Below, piece after piece: positions 154-12,615 of a stretch of 12,615 nucleotides of DNA. This DNA is from Candidatus Rifleibacteriota bacterium (GTDB lineage Bacteria; Riflebacteria; Ozemobacteria; Ozemobacterales; Ozemobacteraceae): contig JAKJFO010000020.1 in NCBI GenBank assembly GCA_022704885.1, positions 24,638-37,252 of the forward strand, read 5' to 3'. Numbering within the stretch: the first letter of the stretch is position 1; each line of letters begins with the position of its first letter. The notes under the pieces are model-generated. The model saw only the letters and a list, made by a program, of their open reading frames with translations. It ran no database searches and was not told the DNA's origin. The position numbers and the translations under genes were made by a program.

Positions 154-184
154 TTGTGTCTTGCTGCAGGTAATACTGTATATT
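154..184 (+). promoter_or_regulatory. Weak sigma70-like promoter candidate
   Basis: TTGTGT at 154-159 could serve as a -35 and TATATT at 179-184 as a -10, with a long 19-bp spacer, about 40 bp upstream of the first plus-strand start. The match is poor and the spacing suboptimal. It is listed only as the best candidate in the leader, and the housekeeping promoter consensus of this organism is unknown. Confidence 0.2.
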
Positions 185-213
185 GTTCTTAAAAGTTGCA
201 GAACAAGCCTGCG

Positions 214-219
214 AAGGAG
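214..219 (+). promoter_or_regulatory. Ribosome binding site that decides the start of the DJ-1/PfpI gene
   Basis: AAGGAG lies 5 nt before the ATG at 225. The frame stays open back to another ATG at 183, but that one has no Shine-Dalgarno sequence, and the 14 residues it would add are not conserved-looking. The ATG at 225 is therefore preferred. Confidence 0.85.
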
Positions 220-224
220 ATATC

Positions 225-788
225 ATGAGCAAACCAGTTAAGGTCGGGATTCTGTTTGAGACTGATTTTTATGAAAACGAGATTTTCTATTATCAGCACC
301 GTTTTCAGGAAGAGAATATCGAGCTGCACTTTCTGAGCAGACTATGGGGCAACCCGTCGCTGACTTTTAAAGGGCATGAATATCAGATCAAAATGGATTG
401 CAACGAGAGCTTCGAGGGTCTCAGTGACGAAGAGTTGGCCGGTTTTTCAGCTATCATCGTGCCTGCCGGAATGGTCGCCGACCGTCTGCGCTACACTGCC
501 GACGTGACGCAGATTCCGCCGGCTACGCAGTTTCTGGCGCGGGCGTTTGCCAACAAGAATATAGTCAAGGGAATCATCTGCCACGGTCTCTGGCTGGTCG
601 CACCGATGCCAGAGCTGGTGCGGGGCCGTAAAATGACTTGTCACAACAACCTTCTCGGCGATGCCAAAGCTTATGGAGTCGATTATGTAAACCAGGATCT
701 GGTTGTCGACGGCGACCTGGTTTCGGCCCGAACTGGCGGTCACTGCCATCTTCTGGCTCGTCAGATCATCAATATGATCAAGAAATAG
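225..788 (+). CDS. DJ-1/PfpI family protein (class I glutamine amidotransferase-like fold)
   Basis: Encodes 187 aa. The N-terminal strand VKVGILFETDF (residues 5-15) is followed by an acidic cluster (E12, E17, E19) where the family carries its conserved Glu. Residues 74-82 (FSAIIVPAG) form the oxyanion-type loop. The nucleophile elbow is GIICHGLWLV, with Cys119 followed by His120, as in PfpI proteases, Hsp31-type chaperones and DJ-1 glyoxalase/deglycase proteins. Length is typical for a single-domain member. The family includes proteases, hydrolases, deglycases and amidotransferases, so the substrate cannot be assigned. The start at 225 is chosen for its AAGGAG site. A VOC-family gene follows 7 nt downstream and is probably cotranscribed. 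Both families include methylglyoxal-handling enzymes, which makes a carbonyl-detoxification role a reasonable but unproven guess. A second, more divergent family member lies on the other strand at 6418-7179. Confidence 0.88.
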   Translation: MSKPVKVGILFETDFYENEIFYYQHRFQEENIELHFLSRLWGNPSLTFKGHEYQIKMDCNESFEGLSDEELAGFSAIIVPAGMVADRLRYTADVTQIPPATQFLARAFANKNIVKGIICHGLWLVAPMPELVRGRKMTCHNNLLGDAKAYGVDYVNQDLVVDGDLVSARTGGHCHLLARQIINMIKK

Positions 789-795
789 GCCGACC

Positions 796-1230
796 ATGTC
801 ATCAGATAATCTTGCTTCTGTACAATTCGCTCATGTCGGCATGACCTGCTCGAACCCCCAGGAAACCGAACAGTTTTACTGCAGGTATTTTGGGTTTCGG
901 CGGGTCAGAACTGTTGATCTTGGTAGCAAACAGCTGATTTTTCTCGCCAGCGCAGACGACAATTTCAGGCTCGAACTGTTTCAGGCCACAGAACAATTGC
1001 CAGTGCCAGCGCCTGGCGGTAGCGGGCCTGAATGGCCGGCACTCAAGCATCTGGCCTTCTCGGTGCCAGACCTCGACGCTTTTCTGCGGCAGATGGGTGA
1101 CGCTGCGGTAATAACTCAGTCGACAGTCGATCTCGGTAAAATTGTGCCAGGCTGGAAGGCCGTCTGGTTAGCCGACCCCGATGGCCGCATAGTCGAAGTC
1201 TGTCAGGGCTACACCGACGAAAAGCCATAA
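796..1230 (+). CDS. VOC superfamily (glyoxalase/bleomycin resistance/dioxygenase fold) protein
   Basis: Encodes 144 aa, the usual size of a single-chain VOC protein with two beta-alpha-beta-beta-beta modules. All four canonical metal-ligand positions are present: His13 (FAHVGMTC), Glu60 (RLELFQ), His85 (LKHLAFSV) and Glu134 (RIVEVCQ). The protein is thus likely an active metalloenzyme, as in glyoxalase I, methylmalonyl-CoA epimerase or related lyases. The typical DPDGRIVE turn precedes the last ligand. The start at 796 lies 7 nt after the previous stop with only a weak AGG-type Shine-Dalgarno sequence overlapping that stop codon, suggesting translational coupling. The DJ-1/PfpI partner makes a glyoxalase-like role attractive, but VOC substrates are too diverse to name one. 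Confidence 0.88.
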   Translation: MSSDNLASVQFAHVGMTCSNPQETEQFYCRYFGFRRVRTVDLGSKQLIFLASADDNFRLELFQATEQLPVPAPGGSGPEWPALKHLAFSVPDLDAFLRQMGDAAVITQSTVDLGKIVPGWKAVWLADPDGRIVEVCQGYTDEKP

Positions 1231-2912: not shown

Positions 2913-4082
2913 TTATTCTACCTGAACGATGCGGAAGCCAAGGTCGCAATAGTTTGTATAAGCCCAGTTGGTGTTGGTGTGATAGATCGAAATCGGCGAG
3001 TTGTTGCCGTAAACCAGCCAGCTGCCACCGCGGCGCTGTCGGTAAACCCCGGATTCATCGTTAATCGGGTCTAGTTCACCCTTGGCCGGGTCGTAGCCAG
3101 CCGCTTTGTAGTCTTTGGCGAAATAGGTGTAAGACGAATAGAAATCCTGCGCCCACTCAGAGGCATTGCCGGCCAGATTGTATATGCCGAGTTTTGAAAC
3201 ACCGCCCGGGCAGCAGCCGACATCCTGTGTGCCGCCGCCACTGTTGTAGTTGGCCTTGCCGTCGAAATAGCTGAGCTTCTTGCCAAGTTCACTGTTGACC
3301 CAGTAATCAAGACCTTTGGGCTCCCATGCAACCATTCTGCGGTCATAAATCATGTTATCGTCATCATAGCGTGCGGCGTATTCCCATTCTGCTTCGGTTG
3401 GCAGGCGGTAACCAGGAGAGCCGTAAAAGCGGGCAGTACCGTCAAAGGTGCATGACCAGTCGGTAAGATTGTACAATTTGGTCAGACCCTGAATTTCACT
3501 CAGCATATTGCAGTAGAACGCAGCTCCATACCATGTAACGTAGACTATCGGGCGGTTCTCGAGGCCGGGAGCGACGACGAAACCATAGCCGGTATACGAA
3601 ATCTCGCACTTCTTACCTTCGTAGTCGGCATCGAGATTGAGCAGCTCCTGCTGGTTGCCTTCGGCATTTTTAACCGTTTCATTGCCGGCAAGATTGCCGG
3701 TCAGATAGCCTTTGCGCAGAGCATAGTTGAGCATATCGCAGAACTGGGCATTGGTGATCTCATATTTGCCGATTTTGTAATCGCGTGTCAGGGTCACCAG
3801 CCGCACCGGGCCGGTTACGCCCGAGTTATAATTGGCCGGGTAATCTGCTGCCACAGTATCGGTGCCATTTGCAAAGCCAGAGCCGTCACCCAGATTATCC
3901 CAGCCCATCTTGAAGGTGCCTTTGGGAACGGTCACCATCTCAGGAATGCGCGTGATGGTCGCGTTACCGATAACAGCGGCATCGTCATCATCGTCATCGC
4001 CGAAAATACTGCAGCCAGTAAGCGTCAACGAGAGAAGGCAAATCAACAGCAATGCATAAAATCTGAGTCTAAGATCGAGCAT
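2913..4082 (-). CDS. Lipoprotein with FGE/sulfatase-modifying-factor-like domain
   Basis: Encodes 389 aa. A lipoprotein signal peptide ends in the lipobox L-T-G-C with Cys24, followed by SIFG and six consecutive Asp (29-34), so the protein is anchored to a membrane outside the cytoplasm. The remainder is an FGE-sulfatase (SUMF1/C-type-lectin fold) domain: MVTVPKGTFKMG, KIGKYEITNAQFC, YVTWYGAAFYCNML, YRLPTEAEWEYAAR, LAGNASEWAQDF, RRGGSW and a final LGFRIV. The C-terminal region has only one Cys (NYCDLGFR) and lacks the closely spaced Cys pair of true formylglycine-generating enzymes, so sulfatase activation is unlikely; a binding or structural role fits better. The start at 4082 is preferred over 4130 because GGAG lies 6 nt before it and the signal peptide begins there. 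Its first 14 nt overlap the end of the DUF2878-like gene, indicating translational coupling. Confidence 0.85.
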   Translation of the reverse strand: MLDLRLRFYALLLICLLSLTLTGCSIFGDDDDDDAAVIGNATITRIPEMVTVPKGTFKMGWDNLGDGSGFANGTDTVAADYPANYNSGVTGPVRLVTLTRDYKIGKYEITNAQFCDMLNYALRKGYLTGNLAGNETVKNAEGNQQELLNLDADYEGKKCEISYTGYGFVVAPGLENRPIVYVTWYGAAFYCNMLSEIQGLTKLYNLTDWSCTFDGTARFYGSPGYRLPTEAEWEYAARYDDDNMIYDRRMVAWEPKGLDYWVNSELGKKLSYFDGKANYNSGGGTQDVGCCPGGVSKLGIYNLAGNASEWAQDFYSSYTYFAKDYKAAGYDPAKGELDPINDESGVYRQRRGGSWLVYGNNSPISIYHTNTNWAYTNYCDLGFRIVQVE

Positions 4083-4617
4083 GAGTTTCTCCAAACAGTC
4101 GAATAGAATAAAACGCACAAATCGGAACAATTACTGCCCAGCAGGCAGCTATGATCAGGTATCCGTGCCATGTCGGCGGCCTGAACGCGATGAGCCCCAT
4201 GTGAGAGGCATTGCCCATGATGATGAATGAGAATATTATGCCGGTAATTGGCGGAGTCCAGCGGCTTTTCGCGAGAATCTGCCAGAAGATATAGAGCATG
4301 AACCCGAAGTTCATCCACAAAACCAGTATCCATTCAGGGCAGAGCGGGTCGGAAAGCAACCAGCGCGAGCTGCTGCTGACCGAATATACCCCGAGCCAGA
4401 TCAGCGTCGAGTCGGCTATGAAGCCGATCAGGCCGGTCAGCACGGCAGCCAGCACACGCTTTGCTTTTGCCGTAGTGGCAGGCAGAAACAGGCTGTAGTG
4501 GATGGCGAGCGCAATAAGACCGAGCCATGGATAGCCATGCGTTGTACCCTGGTAGCAGGTCATCGAAGTAAGAATGAAGACCAGGGTATTGAGCTTAAGC
4601 ACCAGATCAGGTTTCAT
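4069..4617 (-). CDS. DUF2878-like polytopic membrane protein
   Basis: Encodes 182 aa, mostly hydrophobic, with about five or six membrane segments and short loops. Recognisable stretches are YPWLGLIALAIHYSLFL (near residues 29-45), LIGFIADSTLIWLGVY, the W-rich PEWILVLWMNFGFML and a later GNASHMGLIAF. This arrangement (PWLG, then L-DS-L---G, then P-WI--LW--F) resembles the DUF2878 family of inner-membrane proteins of unknown function. The frame continues upstream to 4827, but that would overlap the end of the ThDP enzyme by nearly 150 nt and add a non-membrane, low-quality N-terminus. The ATG at 4617 has GAAAGG six nt upstream. The gene follows the ThDP enzyme after 64 nt containing a hairpin and overlaps the lipoprotein gene by 14 nt. 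The family assignment is from memory of its pattern. Confidence 0.68.
   Translation of the reverse strand: MKPDLVLKLNTLVFILTSMTCYQGTTHGYPWLGLIALAIHYSLFLPATTAKAKRVLAAVLTGLIGFIADSTLIWLGVYSVSSSSRWLLSDPLCPEWILVLWMNFGFMLYIFWQILAKSRWTPPITGIIFSFIIMGNASHMGLIAFRPPTWHGYLIIAACWAVIVPICAFYSIRLFGETHARS
4089..4092 (-). promoter_or_regulatory. Ribosome binding site deciding the lipoprotein start
   Basis: GGAG on the minus strand lies 6 nt before the ATG at 4082, inside the 3' end of the preceding gene. It favours 4082 over the longer frame starting at 4130, whose extra 16 residues would bury the signal peptide. Confidence 0.7.
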
Positions 4618-4681: not shown

Positions 4682-6340
4682 TCAGTCCTGAGCCCAGGTT
4701 TTGAAAGGCATGACTTCGTCGGCATCGATAATGACATCGATGATCGATGGCTTGTCTGAAGCCAGTGCTTTTTTGAATGCATCGGCGAACTGTTCGAGCT
4801 TCTCAACCCGGAAGCCGTTCGCGCCACAGGCTTCGGCGTATTTGGCGAAGTCTGGGCAGATGATGTGATTGAACACTTCTTTGCCGTGCGCTGCGAGGTT
4901 GAACAGCTTGATGATATTGAATTCGCTGTTGTTCAAGATGACCCAGATGATCGGAATCTTGTTCTGCAAAGCGGTAAGGATTTCGAATCCTGCCATTTCA
5001 TAATCGCCATCGCCGCAGCCGACGATGACGCGGCGATCTGGATTGGCGAGTTGTACGCCGAGAGAGGCGTTAACATGCGAGGCCATCGGCCCAAAGCTGC
5101 CGGGATTCTTGAAGTTCTGGCCTTTGTTGAATTCCATGAACGCTGCCAGCCAGATCATGTTAGCACCGGCATCACCCAATACGATGGCGCGATCGGGCAG
5201 ATACTTCGCAAGTTCCTGGCACAGGGCACCAGGATGCACTTTGCTGCCTTTGTATTCGACAACTGAATTGTAAATCTTGTCTTTGGTGAAGGTTTTCTTT
5301 TCGACCAGGGGCTTTCTTTGGGTCAGCGCTGCGTCGATAGCCTTAATCGCCGGCGCAATATCAGCTATCATGCCGTAGTCGGTCGGGTAGACCTTGCCGA
5401 TTTCATCGCGGCTGATATTGATGTGCATGAGGGTCTTCTTGTCGAACAGCCCTTCTTCGAACTTCCACATCTGCCATTTCGGGAAAGAATTGCCGATGCC
5501 GATCACGAGTTCAGCAGCTTTGAAAGCCTCTTTCGCGCCCTTGTCGCCGCAGGTGCCCGGCATGCCAAGCGACAACGGGTGGTTTTCGGGGATGATGCCC
5601 TTGGCATCCATTGTGGTCAGAAATGGAATCTGAAATTTTTCGACGAACTGCAGCAGTTCTTTTTCGGCGTGGCTTCTGACGCTGCCGTAACCGATGATCG
5701 CGAGAATTTTTTTCTTCGCGTTGAGTGCGTTGGCAAGAACGTCGGCAAAAAGATCGACGGTTTTCTGCAGTGGCAGAACCGGTTTGATATCAAGCTTGAT
5801 TTCACGATGACGGGTCGCCGGCATGGCGGCGACGTCGTAAGGCAGGTCAATATGCACCGGGCCCGGGCGGCCTTCAAAAGCCAGATTTACGGCAGCTTCA
5901 ACTATGTCGCAGGCCTGATCGGGGTGTTCGATGAGAAAGGTTCCCTTGGTGGTCGCGGCAAACATTGCCTGAGAATCAGGAGTGCGGCCGATTCCGGTTA
6001 CTTCGCCGAGGTCGCCCTTGCCGCGCCATTTCTTGGGGGCATAAGAAGCGATAGAAAGCACCGGCAGAGAATCAGAAAGAGCTACGCCGAGACCCGAGAA
6101 AAAATTGTATGAGCCCGGGCCGCCCTGTGCATTGCAGACGCCGAGTTTGCCCTTGTTGAACATGGCATAGCCGCAGGCCATGAATGAGGCTGCCTGTTCA
6201 TGTCTGACCATGATGGTCTTGATTTTTTTTGACTCGGCAAATGCGAACAAAATGTCGCCCGACCCCTGGCCGGATCCGCTGAAAACCGCGTCTACCCCTA
6301 TAGATTCGAGCATTGCCACGATGGAATTACTGACATTCAT
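4682..6340 (-). CDS. ThDP-dependent enzyme of the acetolactate synthase-like superfamily
   Basis: Encodes 552 aa, the expected full length for the family (pyrimidine-binding, central and pyrophosphate-binding domains). The N-terminal domain has VRHEQAASFMACGYA with the catalytic Glu48, then NAQGGPGSYNFFSGL. The central domain (about 190-330) has the FAD/transhydrogenase-like IIGYGSVRSHAEKELL pattern. The C-terminal domain has the ThDP/metal motif GDGDYEMAGFE at 443-453, ending 26 residues later in NN (470-471). Relatives include acetolactate synthase, sulfoacetaldehyde acetyltransferase, oxalyl-CoA decarboxylase and benzoylformate decarboxylase. No IlvN-type regulatory subunit or other branched-chain biosynthesis gene is nearby, so a specialised 2-keto-acid decarboxylase or carboligase is more likely than anabolic acetolactate synthase; the substrate is unknown. 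AAGGAG lies 10 nt before the ATG. Hairpins sit in both flanking gaps (77 nt upstream, 64 nt downstream). Confidence 0.9.
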   Translation of the reverse strand: MNVSNSIVAMLESIGVDAVFSGSGQGSGDILFAFAESKKIKTIMVRHEQAASFMACGYAMFNKGKLGVCNAQGGPGSYNFFSGLGVALSDSLPVLSIASYAPKKWRGKGDLGEVTGIGRTPDSQAMFAATTKGTFLIEHPDQACDIVEAAVNLAFEGRPGPVHIDLPYDVAAMPATRHREIKLDIKPVLPLQKTVDLFADVLANALNAKKKILAIIGYGSVRSHAEKELLQFVEKFQIPFLTTMDAKGIIPENHPLSLGMPGTCGDKGAKEAFKAAELVIGIGNSFPKWQMWKFEEGLFDKKTLMHINISRDEIGKVYPTDYGMIADIAPAIKAIDAALTQRKPLVEKKTFTKDKIYNSVVEYKGSKVHPGALCQELAKYLPDRAIVLGDAGANMIWLAAFMEFNKGQNFKNPGSFGPMASHVNASLGVQLANPDRRVIVGCGDGDYEMAGFEILTALQNKIPIIWVILNNSEFNIIKLFNLAAHGKEVFNHIICPDFAKYAEACGANGFRVEKLEQFADAFKKALASDKPSIIDVIIDADEVMPFKTWAQD

Positions 6341-6417: not shown

Positions 6418-7179
6418 TTATTTGCTTTTGAGAACTTCGACAAGCTTCTTGCCGTAATCGATCGAAGACTCTACCGACAGGGCGGTTACGAAGGGCCAGT
6501 CATAAACGACACAGGTGTTTTTGCGGTTAGCCTTGGTGTCGGCAGATACTTTGCCTTTGGGGCCGACGGCGTCTTCGACGACATCCTGCAGAGGAAGCAG
6601 GAAACCGGGGGTTACCACGTTGGTGCCGGCATTGTCAGGAGTAGCGCCAGCCAGATCGTAGCTGAGTTCGAAATCGAAGTCCCAGGCGCGCGGATGCGCA
6701 GTCACGTGCTTGCCGTAAATGATGCTCTTGTAGTTGTTGTCAGGATTGCGGGTAAATGCCAGAGCACCGACGGCGTAGCAGATGGCGCCGATGAGCTTGT
6801 TGGTCTTGAAGGCTTCAAGCAGCAGCGCGTGAACTTTGGGGTTGTTGTCGATGTCGAGCGGAGTGCCAGGACCGCCGGTAAGGACGATGGCATCATAATC
6901 AGCCATTTTGGCGTCGGCGATTTTGATCGGTTTGTTCCATTCGGTGCCGTCGAGCAGTTCATGTACGCGCTTGCAGACTTCTGGCGGATTCACCTTGTAA
7001 TGCTGCAGCGAATCTTCAAAGTCAGGATCGATACTCATTTTGATCGGCAACGGCTTTTTGCCCTGTGGAGTTGCCAGAGTAACGGCGAAACCTGCCTTTT
7101 TGAGTGCATCCCAGGGCGCCTGAAGTTCTTCGGCCCAGACCGCGTAATTTGTTGCGAGAACCAGTACTTTTTTAGCCAT
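6418..7179 (-). CDS. DJ-1/PfpI family protein, larger type
   Basis: Encodes 253 aa. It opens with KKVLVLATNYAVWAEELQAP (E17/E18 at the conserved Glu position), has an early GFAVTLATPQGKKPLP segment typical of Hsp31-like members, then DAIVLTGGPGTPLDIDNN (about 96-113), and the nucleophile elbow GAICYAVGAL with Cys134. The residue after Cys is Tyr rather than His, so a standard Cys-His dyad is not obvious. The region after residue 145 (GKHVTAHP, ELSYDLAGATPDN) resembles the larger ThiJ/PfpI proteins. Activity could be glyoxalase III-like, amidase-like or chaperone-like. The ATG at 7179 has AAAGGAG eight nt upstream; the frame extends to 7311 but overlaps the preceding cupin gene and looks non-coding there. 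It is 31 nt after a cupin gene and 77 nt before the ThDP enzyme gene. Confidence 0.87.
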   Translation of the reverse strand: MAKKVLVLATNYAVWAEELQAPWDALKKAGFAVTLATPQGKKPLPIKMSIDPDFEDSLQHYKVNPPEVCKRVHELLDGTEWNKPIKIADAKMADYDAIVLTGGPGTPLDIDNNPKVHALLLEAFKTNKLIGAICYAVGALAFTRNPDNNYKSIIYGKHVTAHPRAWDFDFELSYDLAGATPDNAGTNVVTPGFLLPLQDVVEDAVGPKGKVSADTKANRKNTCVVYDWPFVTALSVESSIDYGKKLVEVLKSK

Positions 7180-7210: not shown

Positions 7211-7555
7211 TCAATATTTGTTCTGATTTTTCCAGGGCGGTACATCATCTCGCGCCGGGCTGAACACATCGATTGCTTCGGTTTCACCAACCGCGACAAA
7301 CGCATGCTCAACGTTAGATGGAACGAAATATGAATCGCCGGCCTTCAGCAGCGCTTTTTCGCCGCCGATGTCGATCTGAAAAGCCCCTTTGATAATGTAA
7401 CCGAACTGCACCGCTGCATGATGATGACTGGGCAGAGCCGCTTTGTCTGCGAAGTTCCAGTGCATTACATTCATCGCTTCGCCGCTGCCCAGGTATTTCC
7501 CGATGACTCCCGGGGCTACCTTGTGCTCCTCCAGCTTATCCAGGAAGCAAAACAT
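7211..7555 (-). CDS. Small single-domain cupin protein (copy B)
   Basis: Encodes 114 aa. Cupin motif 1 is SHHHAAVQFGYIIKG, with His44, His46 and Gln50; motif 2 is GDSYFVPSNVEHAF, with His84. All four putative metal ligands fall at the same residue numbers as in the cupin at 2567-2899, and the two proteins share the same opening (M-F-x-F-x-D-K-L) and a D-x-F-S-P segment near the end, so they are paralogues. They differ in the loop between the first two ligands (HHHAAV here, HEHPEE there) and at the C-terminus, which suggests different ligands or partner proteins. A strong AGGAGG lies 4 nt before the ATG. The gene is 26 nt after the sensor phosphatase gene and directly precedes the second DJ-1/PfpI gene. 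Role unknown. Confidence 0.86.
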   Translation of the reverse strand: MFCFLDKLEEHKVAPGVIGKYLGSGEAMNVMHWNFADKAALPSHHHAAVQFGYIIKGAFQIDIGGEKALLKAGDSYFVPSNVEHAFVAVGETEAIDVFSPARDDVPPWKNQNKY

Positions 7556-7581: not shown

Positions 7582-9555
7582 TTATACTGCTTGCGGACCG
7601 TTGTACTTGATGGCCAGCATGGTGATGTCGTCCGATTGCTCGGCACCGTCTGTAAAGACCGCAACCTCGTGGCGGAGTTCCTTTACCAGCGAGGTAACTT
7701 CCTTGTCACAGTTTGCGTTGAGGGTGTCGTGCAGGCGCTTGTCGCTGAACTGCTTCGCCGCTGTGTTCATCGCCTCGTTGACACCGTCGGTATACAAAAA
7801 CAGTACGTCGCCTGCCCGCATTTTGAAGCTGTTGGGCTTGAATTTAACGCCTGGCATAACCCCGAGAACCACATTCTTGTTGAGTTTCAAGAATTCGAAT
7901 GAACTGCCACCATCGGGCGAAACGCTGAGCAACGGCGGGTTATGACCGGCGTTGGCGCAGGCGAGTTCGCCGGTGCGGGTGTCGAGAATCGCGCAGAACA
8001 CGGTGACGAACATCAGTTCATCGTTGTCGGCGCTGATCAGTTCGTTGACCCGGGCAAGAATCTGTTCTGGCGGCAGATCGTTCATCGCCTCGGTTCGCAG
8101 AAGTGTCTTGGTAATCACCATGAATAGAGCTGCGGCGATACCCTTGCCGGAAACGTCGGCAACAACCATACAGAATTTATCAGGTGTTATAAAGAAGAAG
8201 TCGTAGAAATCGCCACCAACTTCGCGTGCCGGTTCCATCAGACCGAAAATGCTGAGCTCCTTGCGGTCAGGGAAGGGCGGAAAAATGCGCGGCAGCATGC
8301 TGGCCTGTATCTGATGTGCAATTTTGAGCTCGTTTTCGATGCGCTCACGCGCTGCTATGGTCTCTTTGAGCTCACGCAGATAATTCCTGAGATCGTCAGA
8401 CATTTTGTTGAAGGAGTTCTGCATAGCCGTAACTTCGGCAATCTTCGAGAACACTTCAATTTTGTGATCGAGTTCGCCATGAGCGACTTTGCCGACTCCA
8501 CGTGCAAGGGCGCAGATCGGTCGGGCAATAGCTCTTGAAATGGTGATGACGATGACGAGCATAAGAATCAACCCGGCAAAACCGATCAGCGATGATTCGG
8601 CCTGCAGGTCGTAAATCACGCCATGAATCTCATCAGTCGGGTAAACAAAGGCTATCGAACCGGCCATAATACCTGCATGACGCAGTGGTCGCAGCACAAC
8701 CCAGGCCGCGCGGCCGGCGACCGGTTCATTGACTCTGATGAACTTACAGGCGCTTGTCGCGAGTTTATTGAGGTCTTTGAGTTCTGCCGCCATTTCCGGA
8801 CTGAGTTCATTGATGTTTTTTGCAAGAGCCTTGTAGTTGCCGATAGCGTTCATCAGCATACCTTTATTGCTCATGGCGACACAGTAACCTGTTTTCAGAA
8901 TCTTCAGTTCGCTCAGCTTCTGCGAAATTTCATCAAGCGAAATGTCGATAACAATTCCACCAATAACCTTGCCATCTCTGAAAATGGGCAGTGTGTAAGT
9001 CAGCAGCAGCATATACTCTTTACCATCTTTGCCAAGGCTTACTGCGCTGCGGTAAGGTTCTGTCCAGATGGCTTTTTTCTGGTCTCTTGCGGCAAAATAC
9101 CATTCCTTGTCGAAGTAGGTATAATCAGGCTTCTCGCCGAGTTGCATGTAGTCGATCCGGCCATTCTGCCTGAAGTAAATCGGAGCAAAATTTTCGCTGG
9201 CAGTGCTGAACTGGCCGGGCTCGAATGCCATGCCGACGCTATGAATATAGGGATTTGCTTCCAATACCTGTTTCAGATATTCCTTGAGCTGTTCTTCATG
9301 CGATTTATCGCCGATTTCTGTGTAGCGGCGGTTGAAGCTGATCTCCATCATTTTGGCGATCAGAGCCGCTTCGTTGAAAATCAGGTCGAATCTTTTCGTG
9401 TAAAACTGGGCTTTGTCTGTCGCACTCTTCTCGAGAAATTGTTCGACCGTGTCTCTGGTATAATAAAAGTCAACGGCCATGGTCAGCCCGAAAACGAGCG
9501 CAGTGACTCCCCATATCCAGAGAATCATCGTCGTGCGCAGCGAAATCTTATGCAT
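7582..9555 (-). CDS. Membrane sensor phosphatase: dCache-HAMP-PP2C (SpoIIE/RsbU type)
   Basis: Encodes 657 aa. Order: transmembrane helix about 10-30; extracytoplasmic dCache-type sensor about 35-310, including YFDKEWYFAARDQKKAIWTE and the repeat-end pattern GKVIGGIVIDISLDEI; transmembrane helix about 320-342; HAMP linker about 343-397; short coiled segment ending IAHQIQASMLP; PP2C/SpoIIE phosphatase about 430-652. Metal-binding acidic residues are in place: GGDFYD (Asp449, Asp452), VADVSGKG (Asp467), LYTDGVNEA (Asp590) and SDDITML (Asp642/643). Proteins of this build dephosphorylate a phospho-STAS antagonist in response to a periplasmic signal. The ATG overlaps the stop of the HATPase gene by 8 nt and has no good Shine-Dalgarno sequence, so translation is probably coupled. 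Likely substrates are the two neighbouring STAS proteins. The sensor ligand is not predictable here. Confidence 0.93.
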   Translation of the reverse strand: MHKISLRTTMILWIWGVTALVFGLTMAVDFYYTRDTVEQFLEKSATDKAQFYTKRFDLIFNEAALIAKMMEISFNRRYTEIGDKSHEEQLKEYLKQVLEANPYIHSVGMAFEPGQFSTASENFAPIYFRQNGRIDYMQLGEKPDYTYFDKEWYFAARDQKKAIWTEPYRSAVSLGKDGKEYMLLLTYTLPIFRDGKVIGGIVIDISLDEISQKLSELKILKTGYCVAMSNKGMLMNAIGNYKALAKNINELSPEMAAELKDLNKLATSACKFIRVNEPVAGRAAWVVLRPLRHAGIMAGSIAFVYPTDEIHGVIYDLQAESSLIGFAGLILMLVIVITISRAIARPICALARGVGKVAHGELDHKIEVFSKIAEVTAMQNSFNKMSDDLRNYLRELKETIAARERIENELKIAHQIQASMLPRIFPPFPDRKELSIFGLMEPAREVGGDFYDFFFITPDKFCMVVADVSGKGIAAALFMVITKTLLRTEAMNDLPPEQILARVNELISADNDELMFVTVFCAILDTRTGELACANAGHNPPLLSVSPDGGSSFEFLKLNKNVVLGVMPGVKFKPNSFKMRAGDVLFLYTDGVNEAMNTAAKQFSDKRLHDTLNANCDKEVTSLVKELRHEVAVFTDGAEQSDDITMLAIKYNGPQAV

Positions 9556-9958
9556 ACTTGGTCAGTCTCAAAATGTTCGCCTCACCACTGCGTTCATAGG
9601 TGAGAACATCCATTATCTGCTTTGCGAAAAATATACCGAGTCCGCCGATCTGGCGTTCTTCCATCGGCAGGGTGGTGTCAGGGTCTGCTTTGTCGAGCAT
9701 GTTGAAAGGAATTCCAAGATCCTTTACCTCAATGGTAATTCCTGCTTTGTCGCCCTCGGTCGGCGAACAGGCGATGTCGATCGATCCGGTTGTTTGAGGG
9801 TAAGAATAACTGATGATATTCACCAGTATCTCTTCCATGGCCAGCCTGATTTTGCCGATCTTCTTATCGTCGAAACCCAGTTCCCGGGCATAATCCAGGA
9901 TGAAGCCGAGCATGTCGTTCAGATTCTCCAGCTTCGCCGGATGAGTTGAAGCAGGCAT
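9548..9958 (-). CDS. RsbW/SpoIIAB-like HATPase (anti-sigma factor or STAS kinase)
   Basis: Encodes 136 aa, a stand-alone GHKL ATPase domain of the size of RsbW and SpoIIAB. The N box is AMEEILVNIISY (Glu42/43 and Asn47), the G1 box is VKDLGIPFN (Asp80) and the G2-type loop is IGGLGIFFAKQIMD (105-116). Family members phosphorylate STAS anti-anti-sigma factors on Ser/Thr and usually bind a sigma factor or another target. No sigma factor gene is in the window, so the protein it restrains, if any, is encoded elsewhere or is not a sigma factor. It sits between a complete STAS gene (19 nt upstream) and the sensor phosphatase (8-nt overlap), the classical partner-switch trio. AAGGGG lies 6 nt before the ATG. 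Confidence 0.9.
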   Translation of the reverse strand: MPASTHPAKLENLNDMLGFILDYARELGFDDKKIGKIRLAMEEILVNIISYSYPQTTGSIDIACSPTEGDKAGITIEVKDLGIPFNMLDKADPDTTLPMEERQIGGLGIFFAKQIMDVLTYERSGEANILRLTKYA

Positions 9959-9977
9959 TTAAAGCCCCTTTCGGGAA

Positions 9978-10298
9978 TTACCCCTCGAATTCTTTCTGTA
10001 TGGTCATGAAGGTGTCGAGTCCGCTCATTTTGACTACGTCAAGAACTGCTTCCTGGGCGCCGACAAGGTAGACCTGTACATCAGCACCGATGCGCTGCTT
10101 GGCGAATATCATGACGCGCAGACCGGCGCTGGCTATGTACGTCAGATCCTTTACCATGAACACGATTTTGCTGATTTTCTGGCCGATCAGCTTTTTGAGT
10201 TCTTCCTGAAAGTTGCCGGCATTAGTGGCATCGAGGCTGCCTGCGAGCGTAACCCGGGCGATACCGTCGTTGAGTTCCATTTTGTACTGCAGATCCAT
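9978..10298 (-). CDS. STAS-domain anti-anti-sigma factor antagonist
   Basis: Encodes 106 aa, the standard single STAS domain. It opens MDLQYKMELNDGIARVTLAG, has the LDATNAGNF segment, and contains the phosphorylation loop DLTYIASAGLRVM with Ser57 at the position phosphorylated in SpoIIAA and RsbV. In the usual scheme, the unphosphorylated form binds the RsbW-like kinase and frees its target, the kinase phosphorylates Ser57, and the SpoIIE-type phosphatase resets it. Both such enzymes are encoded immediately downstream. The start at 10298 (AAGGAG six nt upstream) is preferred to 10325, which would overlap glgX and add nine non-conserved residues. It lies 16 nt after glgX. Confidence 0.92.
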   Translation of the reverse strand: MDLQYKMELNDGIARVTLAGSLDATNAGNFQEELKKLIGQKISKIVFMVKDLTYIASAGLRVMIFAKQRIGADVQVYLVGAQEAVLDVVKMSGLDTFMTIQKEFEG

Positions 10299-10304
10299 AT
10301 ATTG

Positions 10305-10310
10305 CTCCTT
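10305..10310 (-). promoter_or_regulatory. Ribosome binding site deciding the STAS start
   Basis: AAGGAG on the minus strand is 6 nt before the ATG at 10298 and lies within the 16-nt gap after the glgX stop codon. It rules against the longer frame beginning at 10325. Confidence 0.85.
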
Positions 10311-10314
10311 GAGG

Positions 10315-12423
10315 TTATTTACCAACCAGCACGATGACCGAGCGCGGCCCGACCATGAAATACTGCTGGTTGTCGAGTAAGATTTCGTTTCCGGGGGTCA
10401 CGATGTCATCTGGCGATTCCATGCCGGTATTGGCAAAAACATGCCAGCGTCGGCCGTTATCGAGGCCGGGCAGTTCGAAGCCGTGTGCATCCCAGTGCAT
10501 GTTCATCGCTACGTAGATGTCAGGTTCTACCGTGCGCCGTTCGTCGCTCTGCCAGCGGCGGCACATGAAAGCTACCGTGCGCGCGGCGCCTGACCAGTCA
10601 GCGTTCCAGGCGCTGGTGCCGTGCCACGAAACTTCGACGTCTGGTGCGGCATTCATCGCGTAAGAGCTGTAGCGCAGCATCGGGCTGGCTTTTCTGAACG
10701 CGATCATCTGCCTGAAGAAATTGTGAATTTCGGCGTTTTCTGAGAGCTGCTCCCAGTTCAGCCATGAAAGCTCGTTATCCTGGCAATAGGCGTTGTTGTT
10801 GCCATACTGCGTATTGCCGAACTCATCGCCGGCCAGGATCATCGGGGTGCCATGGCTGACCAGCAGCATGGCGGCAGCATTCTTGATCTGCCTGATCCGC
10901 AGCCGGTTGACCTCTTTATCGTCGCAGGGCCCTTCCCAGCCGCAGTTCCAGCTGTGGTTGTCGTTGCCGCCGTCAGAATTGTTCTCGCCATTGGCTTCAT
11001 TATGCTTGCCGTTGTAAGAAACCATATCCATCAGTGTAAAGCCGTCGTGGCAGGTGATGAAGTTGACTGAGGCACAGTTTTCGCGGGCTTCCCACTGGTA
11101 CAGGTCGGGCGAGCCTTGAATGCGCTGTGATACAGCGCCGGCAAGGCCGGGTTCGCCTTTCAAAAACTTGCGCAGGTCATCGCGATACTTGCCATTCCAT
11201 TCGGCCCAGCGCCCCCATGACGGGAATGAGCCGACCTGGTAGAGTCCGCCGGCATCCCAGGCTTCGGCGATCAGCTTGCATTTGCCGAGAATCGGGTCGA
11301 ATGCCAGCGTTTCGAGCAGTGGTGGGCTGCTCATCGGCGCCCCGTTCTGGTCACGGCCGAGAATGGCGGCGAGATCGAAGCGAAAGCCGTCAACGTGATA
11401 ATCGGTAACCCAGTAGCGCAGGCAGTCGAGAATCATGTTGCGCACGATCGGGTTGTTGCAGTTGAGCGTGTTGCCGCAGCCGCTGAAGTTGTAGTAATAA
11501 CCCTCGGGCGTCAGCATGTAGTAAGTCTTGTTGTCGATGCCGCGATACGAAATGTAGTGGCCGCGCTCGTTGCCCTCGGCTGTGTGGTTGAAAACCACGT
11601 CGAGAATGACCTCGATGCCGTTCTTGTGCAGCGTTTTGATGGTATTCTTGAGCTCATCAGCCTGCATGCCGAATTTGCCGGTAGCGGCAAAACCCGCTTT
11701 GGGCGCGAAGAAGCCAACGTTGCTGTAGCCCCAGTAGTTGAGCAGGCGCTCGCCGGTGACCGGCGAAAGTTTTGAGTTTTCGAACTCATCGAAAGTGTGG
11801 ACAGGCATTAGTTCGAGGCAGTTTATGCCGAGATCCTTAAGGTAGGGAATCTTGTCGCGGATGGCGGCGAACGTGCCGGGGTGCTTTACCTTCGCTGAAG
11901 CGTGGGCGGTAAAGCCGCGCACGTGCATTTCATAAATGACCAGGTCTTCGAACGGAATCTCGAGCTGGCAATCGTCTTCCCAGTCGAAGTCGTCGGCCAG
12001 TATCTGGCCGCGGTGCGGAAAAATATTGTTCCAGTCCGGTTCTTTACCCCACACATCGCGACCGCTGACCAGTCTGGCATAGGGATCGAGCAGAACCTTG
12101 TCTCTGTCGAAGCGATGCCCGTTTTCTGGATCATACGGCCCTTCCATGCGGTAGCCGTATTCGATGTTTTCGTAGTCGACATCGAAGAGAATCATGCTGA
12201 AAACGTTGCCGGTGCGAAATTCCCTCGGAAAGGGAATCTCGGCAAAGGGCTGCGTGGCATGTTTTTTGAACAGCACAAGTGAGCAGGCAGTCGCATAGCG
12301 TGAAAACACCGAAAAGTTGACGCCGCCGGGCACCAGAGTAGCGCCGAACGGCAGCGGCTTGCCCGCCCTGAGTTTGAATTCGCCGTGTGAGTGGGTAGGG
12401 TGCAGGTCGATGCGGTTTGTCAT
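10315..12423 (-). CDS. glgX: Glycogen debranching enzyme GlgX (isoamylase-type, GH13)
   Basis: Encodes 702 aa, the normal length for GlgX/TreX. An N-terminal CBM48-like domain (about 18-110, PFGATLVPGGVNFSVFSRYA) precedes the GH13 barrel. The four conserved regions are visible: DVVFNHTAEG (from Asp275), DGFRFDLA with the nucleophile Asp350, LIAEAWD with acid/base Glu387, and FITCHDGF with Asp460. The GlgX-typical NGKHNEANGENNSDG and NGWN-like HSWNCGWEG follow, and the C-terminal beta domain ends PRSVIVLVGK. It hydrolyses alpha-1,6 branch linkages of glycogen, chiefly in limit dextrins, in the cytoplasm. Unusually it is embedded between two STAS genes: one base separates its ATG from the stop of the upstream STAS gene, and the next STAS gene starts 16 nt after it. 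AGGAG lies 4 nt before the ATG. No other glycogen gene is visible. Confidence 0.95.
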   Translation of the reverse strand: MTNRIDLHPTHSHGEFKLRAGKPLPFGATLVPGGVNFSVFSRYATACSLVLFKKHATQPFAEIPFPREFRTGNVFSMILFDVDYENIEYGYRMEGPYDPENGHRFDRDKVLLDPYARLVSGRDVWGKEPDWNNIFPHRGQILADDFDWEDDCQLEIPFEDLVIYEMHVRGFTAHASAKVKHPGTFAAIRDKIPYLKDLGINCLELMPVHTFDEFENSKLSPVTGERLLNYWGYSNVGFFAPKAGFAATGKFGMQADELKNTIKTLHKNGIEVILDVVFNHTAEGNERGHYISYRGIDNKTYYMLTPEGYYYNFSGCGNTLNCNNPIVRNMILDCLRYWVTDYHVDGFRFDLAAILGRDQNGAPMSSPPLLETLAFDPILGKCKLIAEAWDAGGLYQVGSFPSWGRWAEWNGKYRDDLRKFLKGEPGLAGAVSQRIQGSPDLYQWEARENCASVNFITCHDGFTLMDMVSYNGKHNEANGENNSDGGNDNHSWNCGWEGPCDDKEVNRLRIRQIKNAAAMLLVSHGTPMILAGDEFGNTQYGNNNAYCQDNELSWLNWEQLSENAEIHNFFRQMIAFRKASPMLRYSSYAMNAAPDVEVSWHGTSAWNADWSGAARTVAFMCRRWQSDERRTVEPDIYVAMNMHWDAHGFELPGLDNGRRWHVFANTGMESPDDIVTPGNEILLDNQQYFMVGPRSVIVLVGK

Positions 12424-12424
12424 A

Positions 12425-12615
12425 TTACTCCTGATTGGCTGCCAGGTTGCTCAGCGCTGATTTGAGATCGGGGTAAACCGTGAAGAATCCGCTGAAGCCG
12501 GTCATTTCCATGATGTCGGCGATTTCGTCGGAAAGGCCGCAGAAAGCCCAGCGGCCGCCCTGCATCTTGAGCTGCTTGCCGATCATCAAAAGCACGCGCA
12601 GACCGGCGCTCGAAA
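12425..12615 (-). CDS. STAS-domain protein, C-terminal part (cut by window edge)
   Basis: The last 62 codons of a gene entering from the right edge are visible; the 5' part lies beyond 12615. The readable part begins SSAGLRVLLMIGK, which is the phosphorylation loop of a STAS anti-anti-sigma domain (the Ser before AGLR), followed by GGRWAFCGLSDEIADIM and a C-terminal helix ending LAANQE. This is the same fold and loop as the STAS protein at 9978-10298, so the locus carries at least two antagonists. Its stop codon lies one base before the glgX ATG and the Shine-Dalgarno sequence of glgX is inside its last codons, so the two are almost certainly cotranscribed and coupled. Confidence 0.85.
   Translation of the reverse strand, partial: SSAGLRVLLMIGKQLKMQGGRWAFCGLSDEIADIMEMTGFSGFFTVYPDLKSALSNLAANQE

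Follow-up and report, generated by a model that had tools for sequence, protein, structure and literature searches.

The window analysed here is a stretch of 12,615 nucleotides from a Candidatus Rifleibacteriota bacterium (GCA_022704885.1, contig JAKJFO010000020.1, positions 24,638 to 37,252), whose minus strand carries genes for a STAS protein (STAS1), the isoamylase-type debranching enzyme GlgX, a second STAS protein (STAS2), an RsbW-like HATPase and a SpoIIE-type phosphatase. An earlier, sequence-only reading of this DNA had described these as one close-packed unit, and the five genes are found as it stated, with 1 bp between STAS1 and GlgX, 16 bp between GlgX and STAS2, 19 bp between STAS2 and the HATPase, and an overlap of 8 bp between the HATPase and the phosphatase (coordinates in Table 1). 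Two distinct STAS genes flanking glgX, joined in one unit with an RsbW-like kinase and a SpoIIE phosphatase, are the features that mark an icfG-type cluster, and the locus apparently represents icfG-type partner switching dedicated to an enzyme. The cyanobacterial cluster is already known, along with the kinase, the phosphatase and the pair of STAS substrates that it encodes; for the module outside the cyanobacteria, for a GlgX clade tied to it and for its epimerase-fold partner we found no earlier description in the open-licence literature.

Partner switching has been studied mostly as a means of freeing sigma factors. Here, one GlgX clade bears the switch in phyla that are far apart, and among its hosts are 17 Bacteroidota genomes without a sigma factor over the cut-off of the model for sigma B, F and G. 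Our best explanation is that an old module, spread horizontally, is present in the window in a Riflebacteria-like copy; in this module a partner switch is joined to one clade of GlgX and often also to a 2-epimerase-fold protein encoded upstream.

Association of the switch genes with one GlgX clade

The best 80 of 577 confirmed loci were taken from a scan with the window GlgX, and further loci came from genome searches that included six phyla. Each GlgX was scored against the window GlgX, and STAS, HATPase and SpoIIE genes were sought with profiles trained on the 80 loci. The 930-bit border between high-scoring and lower-scoring GlgX was chosen after the gap was seen; L081 to L096, repeat copies of genomes already among the 80, are excluded from the counts, and the GlgX of L199, one of the 98 high-scoring loci, is identical to that of L018. 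A STAS or HATPase gene is present within 1.5 kb and on the same strand at 95 of the 98 loci whose GlgX scores at least 930 bits, whereas at none of the 93 loci with a GlgX of 400 to 930 bits does a STAS, HATPase or SpoIIE gene occur within 1.5 kb, 91 of these being flanked on each side by 1 kb of sequence or more (Fisher p about 1e-51, with the relatedness of loci ignored). The linkage between GlgX and the switch is therefore not a coincidence. Among the 18 high-scoring loci that had no part in profile training, 17 have a STAS or HATPase gene, the exception, L142, being situated at a contig end.

The anatomy and conservation of the module are, in our judgement, close to certain. A STAS gene is found within 1.5 kb upstream of GlgX at 86 of the 98 high-scoring loci and a STAS gene in the STAS2 position within 1 kb downstream at 64; an HATPase gene is seen at 81, in 78 cases within 3.5 kb downstream and in three within 1.5 kb upstream. 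Some loci in these counts lose sequence at contig ends. Several loci depart from this layout. In Nostoc desertorum (L006:17577-19288) the module is split, with STAS, HATPase and phosphatase genes on the opposite strand, 5 to 7 kb from STAS1 and GlgX, while in three Bacteroidota loci (L141, L143 and L144) the HATPase and STAS genes lie upstream of GlgX, together with the phosphatase in L141 and L143. The HATPase match of G247 is inside an open frame of 807 residues and is possibly fused, and the Nitrospirae genome G008 has a second module-type HATPase and STAS pair on a 3.4 kb locus (L239) where no GlgX was seen; this may be a duplicate of the switch that acts on a different target.

A neighbourhood search places the adjacency of STAS or HATPase genes to glgX well outside a single genome. 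By record titles, the partner-linked loci among the best 80 of the 577 come from 14 phyla: Bacteroidota (27), Cyanobacteriota (25), Chloroflexota (6), Actinomycetota (5), Omnitrophota (3), Pseudomonadota (3) and Bacillota (2), with seven phyla represented by one locus each (Riflebacteria, Kiritimatiellota, Gemmatimonadota, Nitrospirota, Planctomycetota, Balneolota and Desantisbacteria). Occurrence within phyla is rare and patchy. A GlgX of at least 930 bits is present in 4 of 39 genomes of the Riflebacteria phylum, 6 of 198 Bacteroidota, 11 of 146 Cyanobacteriota, 2 of 201 Chloroflexota, 1 of 299 Pseudomonadota and 1 of 246 Actinomycetota, the last two being the seed genomes only; in all these samples except that of the Riflebacteria phylum, scoring was confined in each genome to the 3 to 7 first-look candidates that ranked best. 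The hosts are often metagenome-assembled genomes, and records of Spirosoma, Runella, Dyadobacter and Streptomyces without that mark also bear the module.

The GlgX tree was built from 123 of 192 rows, 25 module rows having been dropped by hand as near-copies and the lower-scoring rows below 600 bits thinned to 15, and it leaves out the plant isoamylases and 2wsk. All 71 partner-linked rows fall inside one clade of 76 rows (Shimodaira-Hasegawa-like approximate likelihood ratio test, SH-aLRT, 100), the other five being L097, L218, L075, L070 and L142. The clade includes the GlgX of Synechocystis salina (L056), which serves as a stand-in for Synechocystis sp. PCC 6803. The closest relative of the window GlgX among the best 80 of the 577 loci is 93% identical and belongs to Candidatus Riflebacteria bacterium HGW-Riflebacteria-1 (L001), so that the window organism is presumably a member or a near relation of this lineage. 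A recent gift of the module from the sampled cyanobacteria was considered and is unsupported, since the cyanobacterial module GlgX, the UBA8530 genome apart, form one nested clade.

A comparison of trees likewise bears out a shared history of GlgX and its regulators. Pairwise distances correlate with those of GlgX at 0.854 for STAS1 (n = 89), 0.826 for STAS2 (n = 64) and 0.795 for the HATPase (n = 81), that is at 0.80 to 0.85 for these three, and at 0.648 for the phosphatase (n = 49); the top value of 500 shuffles was 0.23, and some part of these correlations is explained by relatedness alone. One HATPase tree was made with 72 rows (10 dropped) and another with 34 module rows chosen by hand, 16 paralogs and three further rows. 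In the trees of GlgX and of the HATPase the Bacteroidota are split identically, the Prevotella-type loci being placed with Riflebacteria, Omnitrophota and Clostridia and the Spirosoma-type loci with Nitrospirota, an indication that the module was transferred as one unit. No GlgX was seen at the 16 paralogous HATPase loci of module genomes, the lone match (L238) being itself a module locus. The sequence-only reading had suggested a module either ancient or transferred; both descriptions apply, as one GlgX clade goes together with patchy occurrence and a placement discordant with phylum.

Possible output of the switch

The two STAS proteins of the module belong to distinct classes. The upstream class has the consensus SSAGLR...TGF..FF, in which SSAGLR is kept in the consensus of 90 upstream proteins and its serine is presumably the phosphorylation site, as in the family at large; the downstream class has the consensus SAGLR..IFAKQKMG. 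The glutamate and asparagine of the HATPase motif (E43 and N47) do not vary across the 16 module HATPases that were aligned. Among the phosphatases, 43 of 48 were scanned for domains, and all 43 have a SpoIIE domain, accompanied by HAMP in 13, GAF in 12, a PDC-type sensor in nine, a response-regulator receiver in seven and a cyclic-nucleotide domain in three. Since the sensor domains vary while SpoIIE is kept throughout, the input of the switch is exchangeable and its output side more constant.

The window GlgX is a TIGR02100 protein, scoring over the curated cut-off, with CBM48 and GH13 domains and with three carboxylates present (D350, E387 and D460), which we take to be the catalytic ones. 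All 74 high-scoring rows and all 49 other GlgX rows have the same three residues. Against solved structures the protein scores 659 bits with plant chloroplast isoamylase 1, 518 with 2vnc (TreX) and 441 with 2wsk (from E. coli). Seventeen positions are conserved in the high-scoring rows and rare in the 49 others, nine of them in residues 4 to 122 around CBM48, and this clade-specific region is at most a candidate for a contact surface.

The co-inheritance of a GlgX clade with the switch, together with the lack of a sigma match near the module that is described below, leads us to favour direct switching of GlgX. We propose that the membrane dCache-SpoIIE phosphatase would sense a periplasmic ligand and dephosphorylate STAS1, which the HATPase would rephosphorylate, along with STAS2, using ATP. 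The phosphorylation state of STAS1 would then select between binding to GlgX and binding to the HATPase, contact with GlgX perhaps being made through the altered N-terminal CBM48 region. Binding of STAS1 would set the debranching activity, and thereby how glycogen flows to the enzymes encoded nearby, while STAS2 may be a second substrate under separate control. Kinase and phosphatase action in the window organism is proposed by analogy with that reported for Synechocystis; direct contact between STAS1 and GlgX, the sign of its effect and the ligand are parts of the model that we infer. That the direct output is GlgX, or a branch of GlgX and the epimerase-like enzyme, reached via STAS1, we consider an even call. 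In its fullest form, the model has STAS1 binding a GlgX isoform that is dedicated to the switch, the epimerase-fold protein belonging to the same enzyme branch, and gating glycogen debranching across the 14 phyla in which the module was found, with cyanobacterial icfG as one branch and the reported link of the kinase to SigC as a later or additional use of it; this wider claim is put forward tentatively, with slightly less than even confidence.

It is also conceivable that GlgX stands at the input of the switch, so that GlgX bound to glycogen or to its product captures STAS1 or the HATPase and reports glycogen status to an effector elsewhere. The co-conservation of GlgX and switch fits this too, and the nine clade-specific residues around CBM48 are compatible with it. 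However, modules that bear a phosphatase mostly have varied sensor domains on that protein already, and the intact catalytic residues in every high-scoring row mean that GlgX is more than a sensor. We know of no precedent for such an arrangement and consider it improbable.

If GlgX is instead the target, many bacteria would gate the mobilisation of glycogen at the post-translational level, in response to an external signal, and what the icfG cluster does in carbon use could be tested directly. The dark is the time of glycogen use. PMC7466104 reports both Slr1856 and Slr1859 to be more phosphorylated in the dark. As quoted in PMC12329169, Slr1861 phosphorylates Ssr1600, Slr1856 and Slr1859, IcfG dephosphorylates Slr1856 and not Slr1859, and the phenotype of the icfG cluster is an effect on growth when glucose is supplied and inorganic carbon is low.

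The classical output of a partner switch is a sigma factor, and this was examined with the SigBFG model (matches at E<=1e-10, cut-off of 234.35 bits, distances bounded by contig ends). Scanned against Pfam and NCBIfam, the proteins of the window contain no sigma domain, and in 21 genomes no sigma match occurs less than 18 kb from the module on the same contig, contig ends being limiting. The SigBFG cut-off is passed in 3 of 36 module genomes (one Streptomyces and two Clostridia) and in 1 of 14 control genomes; in the 17 Bacteroidota module genomes the top score is 123.4 bits. Genome G013 offers an internal control, since there, in contrast to the module, a paralogous HATPase (C16:2412851-2413195) does adjoin a sigma match over the cut-off (C16:2412068-2412733). 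Two Bacteroidota genomes, G005 and G007, gave no HATPase match at E<=1e-6 other than the module copy.

A serious rival, if one that we hold to be doubtful on balance, is that the HATPase acts as the anti-sigma factor of an unlinked sigma factor, which would be of group 2 or housekeeping where no B, F or G type is present, and that GlgX is merely co-transcribed in a regulated carbon operon and makes no contact with the switch. The distance and cut-off results above speak against it, and so does the fact that one GlgX clade stays with the switch in phylum after phylum, since an output through a generic sigma factor does not require this. Several observations nevertheless favour it or otherwise weigh against direct switching of GlgX. 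According to PMC12329169, Slr1861, besides its kinase activity, acts as an anti-SigC factor and controls SigC together with Ssr1600, a STAS protein encoded outside the icfG cluster. In Chlamydia, as PMC4552016 reports, an Rsb network controls the primary sigma factor, so that the lack of an alternative sigma factor is not decisive. All 36 module genomes have some sigma70-like match at E<=1e-10, and 7 of the 17 Bacteroidota genomes have two or three, the other ten having one. The scan is blind to sigma factors of the extracytoplasmic function (ECF) type, and many of the module contigs are short. A Streptomyces genome with seven sigma matches over the cut-off (G014) also shows the module HATPase only, and because of this the HATPase scan is probably not exhaustive and probably misses distant paralogs. 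Fusion of STAS and GlgX in one open reading frame (ORF) is seen neither at the 98 loci and in the window nor among the best 120 of 7,982 scored proteins, a set taken up by cyanobacterial-type GlgX, both being weak tests. The phosphatase is less constant than the other partners, being found within 6 kb at 49 of the 98 loci and missing at 13 that have 6 kb on both sides. Three high-scoring GlgX are without partners: L075, where there are none at all, and L070 and L142, where contig ends intervene. Finally, operonic linkage could by itself be sufficient for joint inheritance.

The epimerase-fold protein and other neighbours

Beyond the window, a 2-epimerase-fold protein of about 610 residues is encoded upstream of STAS1 at 53 of the 71 loci that have 2.8 kb of room, and all 58 matches to its gene are on the GlgX strand. 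The protein is 53 to 75% identical to the L001 copy over 28 other aligned rows from various phyla. The L001 copy reaches no curated NCBIfam cut-off, and the predicted structure (predicted template modelling score, pTM, 0.87) matches D-mannose isomerase and cellobiose and glucose 2-epimerases. In the Bacteroidota sample the gene is present in 6 of 6 genomes with a high-scoring GlgX versus 1 of 192 others, and in the Cyanobacteriota sample in 10 of 11 versus 3 of 135. It also accompanies GlgX where switch genes are absent, at 7 of the 93 lower-scoring loci and in three (G125, G554 and G671) of the four genomes of these samples that have the gene and no high-scoring GlgX. These occurrences suggest that the pair of GlgX and epimerase-fold enzyme may have predated the switch and come under its control in one branch. 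A conserved, unnamed partner of this kind points to an unrecognised step beside glycogen debranching.

The minus-strand run of the window continues beyond the phosphatase with genes for a cupin, a DJ-1/PfpI protein, a thiamine-pyrophosphate (TPP) enzyme, a DUF2878 protein, a sulfatase-modifying-factor-like protein and a second cupin. In L001 the order is as in the window, with homologues of the switch genes followed by the downstream DJ-1 and TPP genes and then, on the other strand, the VOC gene and the second DJ-1 gene; L001 also has a longer relative of STAS1. The TPP enzyme is under the cut-off of the 25 NCBIfam models listed out of 55 matched. For STAS2, whose ORF is listed from a TTG at 10325, comparison with relatives leads us to prefer the ATG at 10298 as start.

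Table 1. Genes of the window, with the module first, and copies of the epimerase-fold protein at other loci
Feature	Position	Strand	Basis and remarks
STAS1, C-terminal 62 aa inside, rest beyond window end	12425..12613	-	Pfam STAS 1.7e-9; SSAGLR motif; Slr1856 position, anti-sigma-factor-antagonist-like
GlgX, isoamylase-type glycogen-debranching enzyme	10315..12423	-	TIGR02100 710.7 bits (cut-off 640.9); Pfam CBM48 and GH13
STAS2, STAS protein in Slr1859 position	9978..10298	-	Pfam STAS 1e-17; TIGR00377 76.8 bits (cut-off 53.45); IASAGLR motif
Predicted RsbW/SpoIIAB-like serine kinase, HATPase_c_2	9548..9958	-	Pfam 2.4e-23; E...N motif (E43, N47)
Predicted membrane sensor phosphatase, dCache/PDC-HAMP-SpoIIE, IcfG/RsbU role	7582..9555	-	Pfam SpoIIE 4.1e-49, MCP-like_PDC_1 1.3e-20, dCache_1, HAMP
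Cupin_2 protein	7211..7555	-	Pfam 2.2e-15; 26 bp downstream of phosphatase gene
DJ-1/PfpI protein	6418..7179	-	Pfam 1e-15; likely start ATG 7179 (ORF listed from 7311)
TPP enzyme, acetolactate-synthase/pyruvate-oxidase-like	4682..6340	-	Pfam TPP_enzyme N, M, C
Formylglycine-generating-enzyme-like (SUMF1 domain) protein	2913-4130	-	Same strand run as module; also in L001 and two Bacteroidota loci
VOC/glyoxalase-like protein	796..1230	+	Pfam Glyoxalase 5.3e-11
DJ-1/PfpI protein	183..788	+	Pfam 3.6e-16; opposite strand to module
Epimerase-fold protein copies	L001:343-2241; L056:7817-9640	GlgX strand	27 further loci aligned

Several of these families recur near the module. Counting the window, the DJ-1 family of 183..788 is found at 47 of 81 loci, that of 6418..7179 at 26, the TPP enzyme at 24 and the VOC protein at 22; in Synechocystis salina the first of these lies upstream of the epimerase-fold gene. 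Such recurrence, together with the frequency of the upstream epimerase-fold gene and its presence beside GlgX without any switch gene, would suit an explanation in which the neighbourhood alone is shared, the locus being a carbon-storage island with a general regulator beside several enzymes, whose target is another enzyme or none. The switch genes are, however, more constant companions of GlgX than the other neighbours are, as the upstream STAS gene illustrates. Eleven Prevotella-type loci and both Clostridia loci, moreover, have STAS and HATPase genes near GlgX (2.7 kb off for the HATPase of L038) and no epimerase-fold gene in the stretch examined. We hold a merely shared neighbourhood to be highly improbable and retain the switching of GlgX through STAS1 as our preferred reading.

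Two further families were observed near the module. One, whose L015 copy (L015:13616-15178) has WD40-repeat matches, recurs at ten other Bacteroidota loci; the other is a further family of GH13 alpha-amylases, whose L014 copy (L014:13050-14987) bears a starch-binding domain, CBM20, and which is present at eleven other loci, mostly of Bacteroidota.

Comparison with known systems

The RsbU-RsbV-RsbW-sigma B and SpoIIE-SpoIIAA-SpoIIAB-sigma F systems contain the same three classes of protein as the window, namely a SpoIIE-type phosphatase, a STAS protein with a serine motif and an HATPase. In those systems the gene of the cognate sigma factor is linked, whereas the window has an enzyme gene in that place and two STAS proteins. 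Furthermore, the window HATPase is below the curated equivalog cut-offs of both kinases, with 36.3 versus 145 bits for RsbW and 26.2 versus 135 bits for SpoIIAB.

On the side of the enzyme, canonical GlgX (2wsk), TreX (2vnc) and plant isoamylase 1 are likewise GH13-type debranching enzymes. The lower-scoring GlgX differ from the window clade in that none of their 93 loci has switch genes within 1.5 kb and in the 17 conserved residues that are specific to the clade.

The control of an enzyme by a STAS-type partner has precedents. PMC8457831 describes STAS-type partners that switch enzymes, diguanylate cyclases, in SiaC-SiaD, HsbA-HsbD and BgrV-BgrR, and in SiaABC-SiaD, HsbA-HsbD and BgrV-BgrR a phosphorylation-controlled STAS-type protein sets enzyme activity, as is proposed here. 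The target of SiaC, a DUF1987 protein structurally related to STAS, is the cyclase SiaD, whereas the target proposed by analogy for the window would be a GH13 debranching enzyme.

The closest resemblance is to the icfG cluster of Synechocystis (slr1852-slr1862), which has the same contents, namely an epimerase-fold protein, a STAS protein, the isoamylase GlgX, a second STAS protein, an HATPase kinase and a SpoIIE phosphatase, and shares the DJ-1 family. The icfG-like gene content that the sequence-only reading had recognised is upheld by the cluster of Synechocystis salina (L056), where the same genes occur with the last two swapped: the order there is DJ-1, epimerase-fold, STAS, GlgX, STAS, phosphatase and HATPase, whereas in the window the HATPase precedes the phosphatase. 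The dCache sensor phosphatase of the window is 23% identical to the L056 phosphatase. The window differs further in its non-cyanobacterial host and in the cupin, DJ-1 and TPP genes that it adds downstream.

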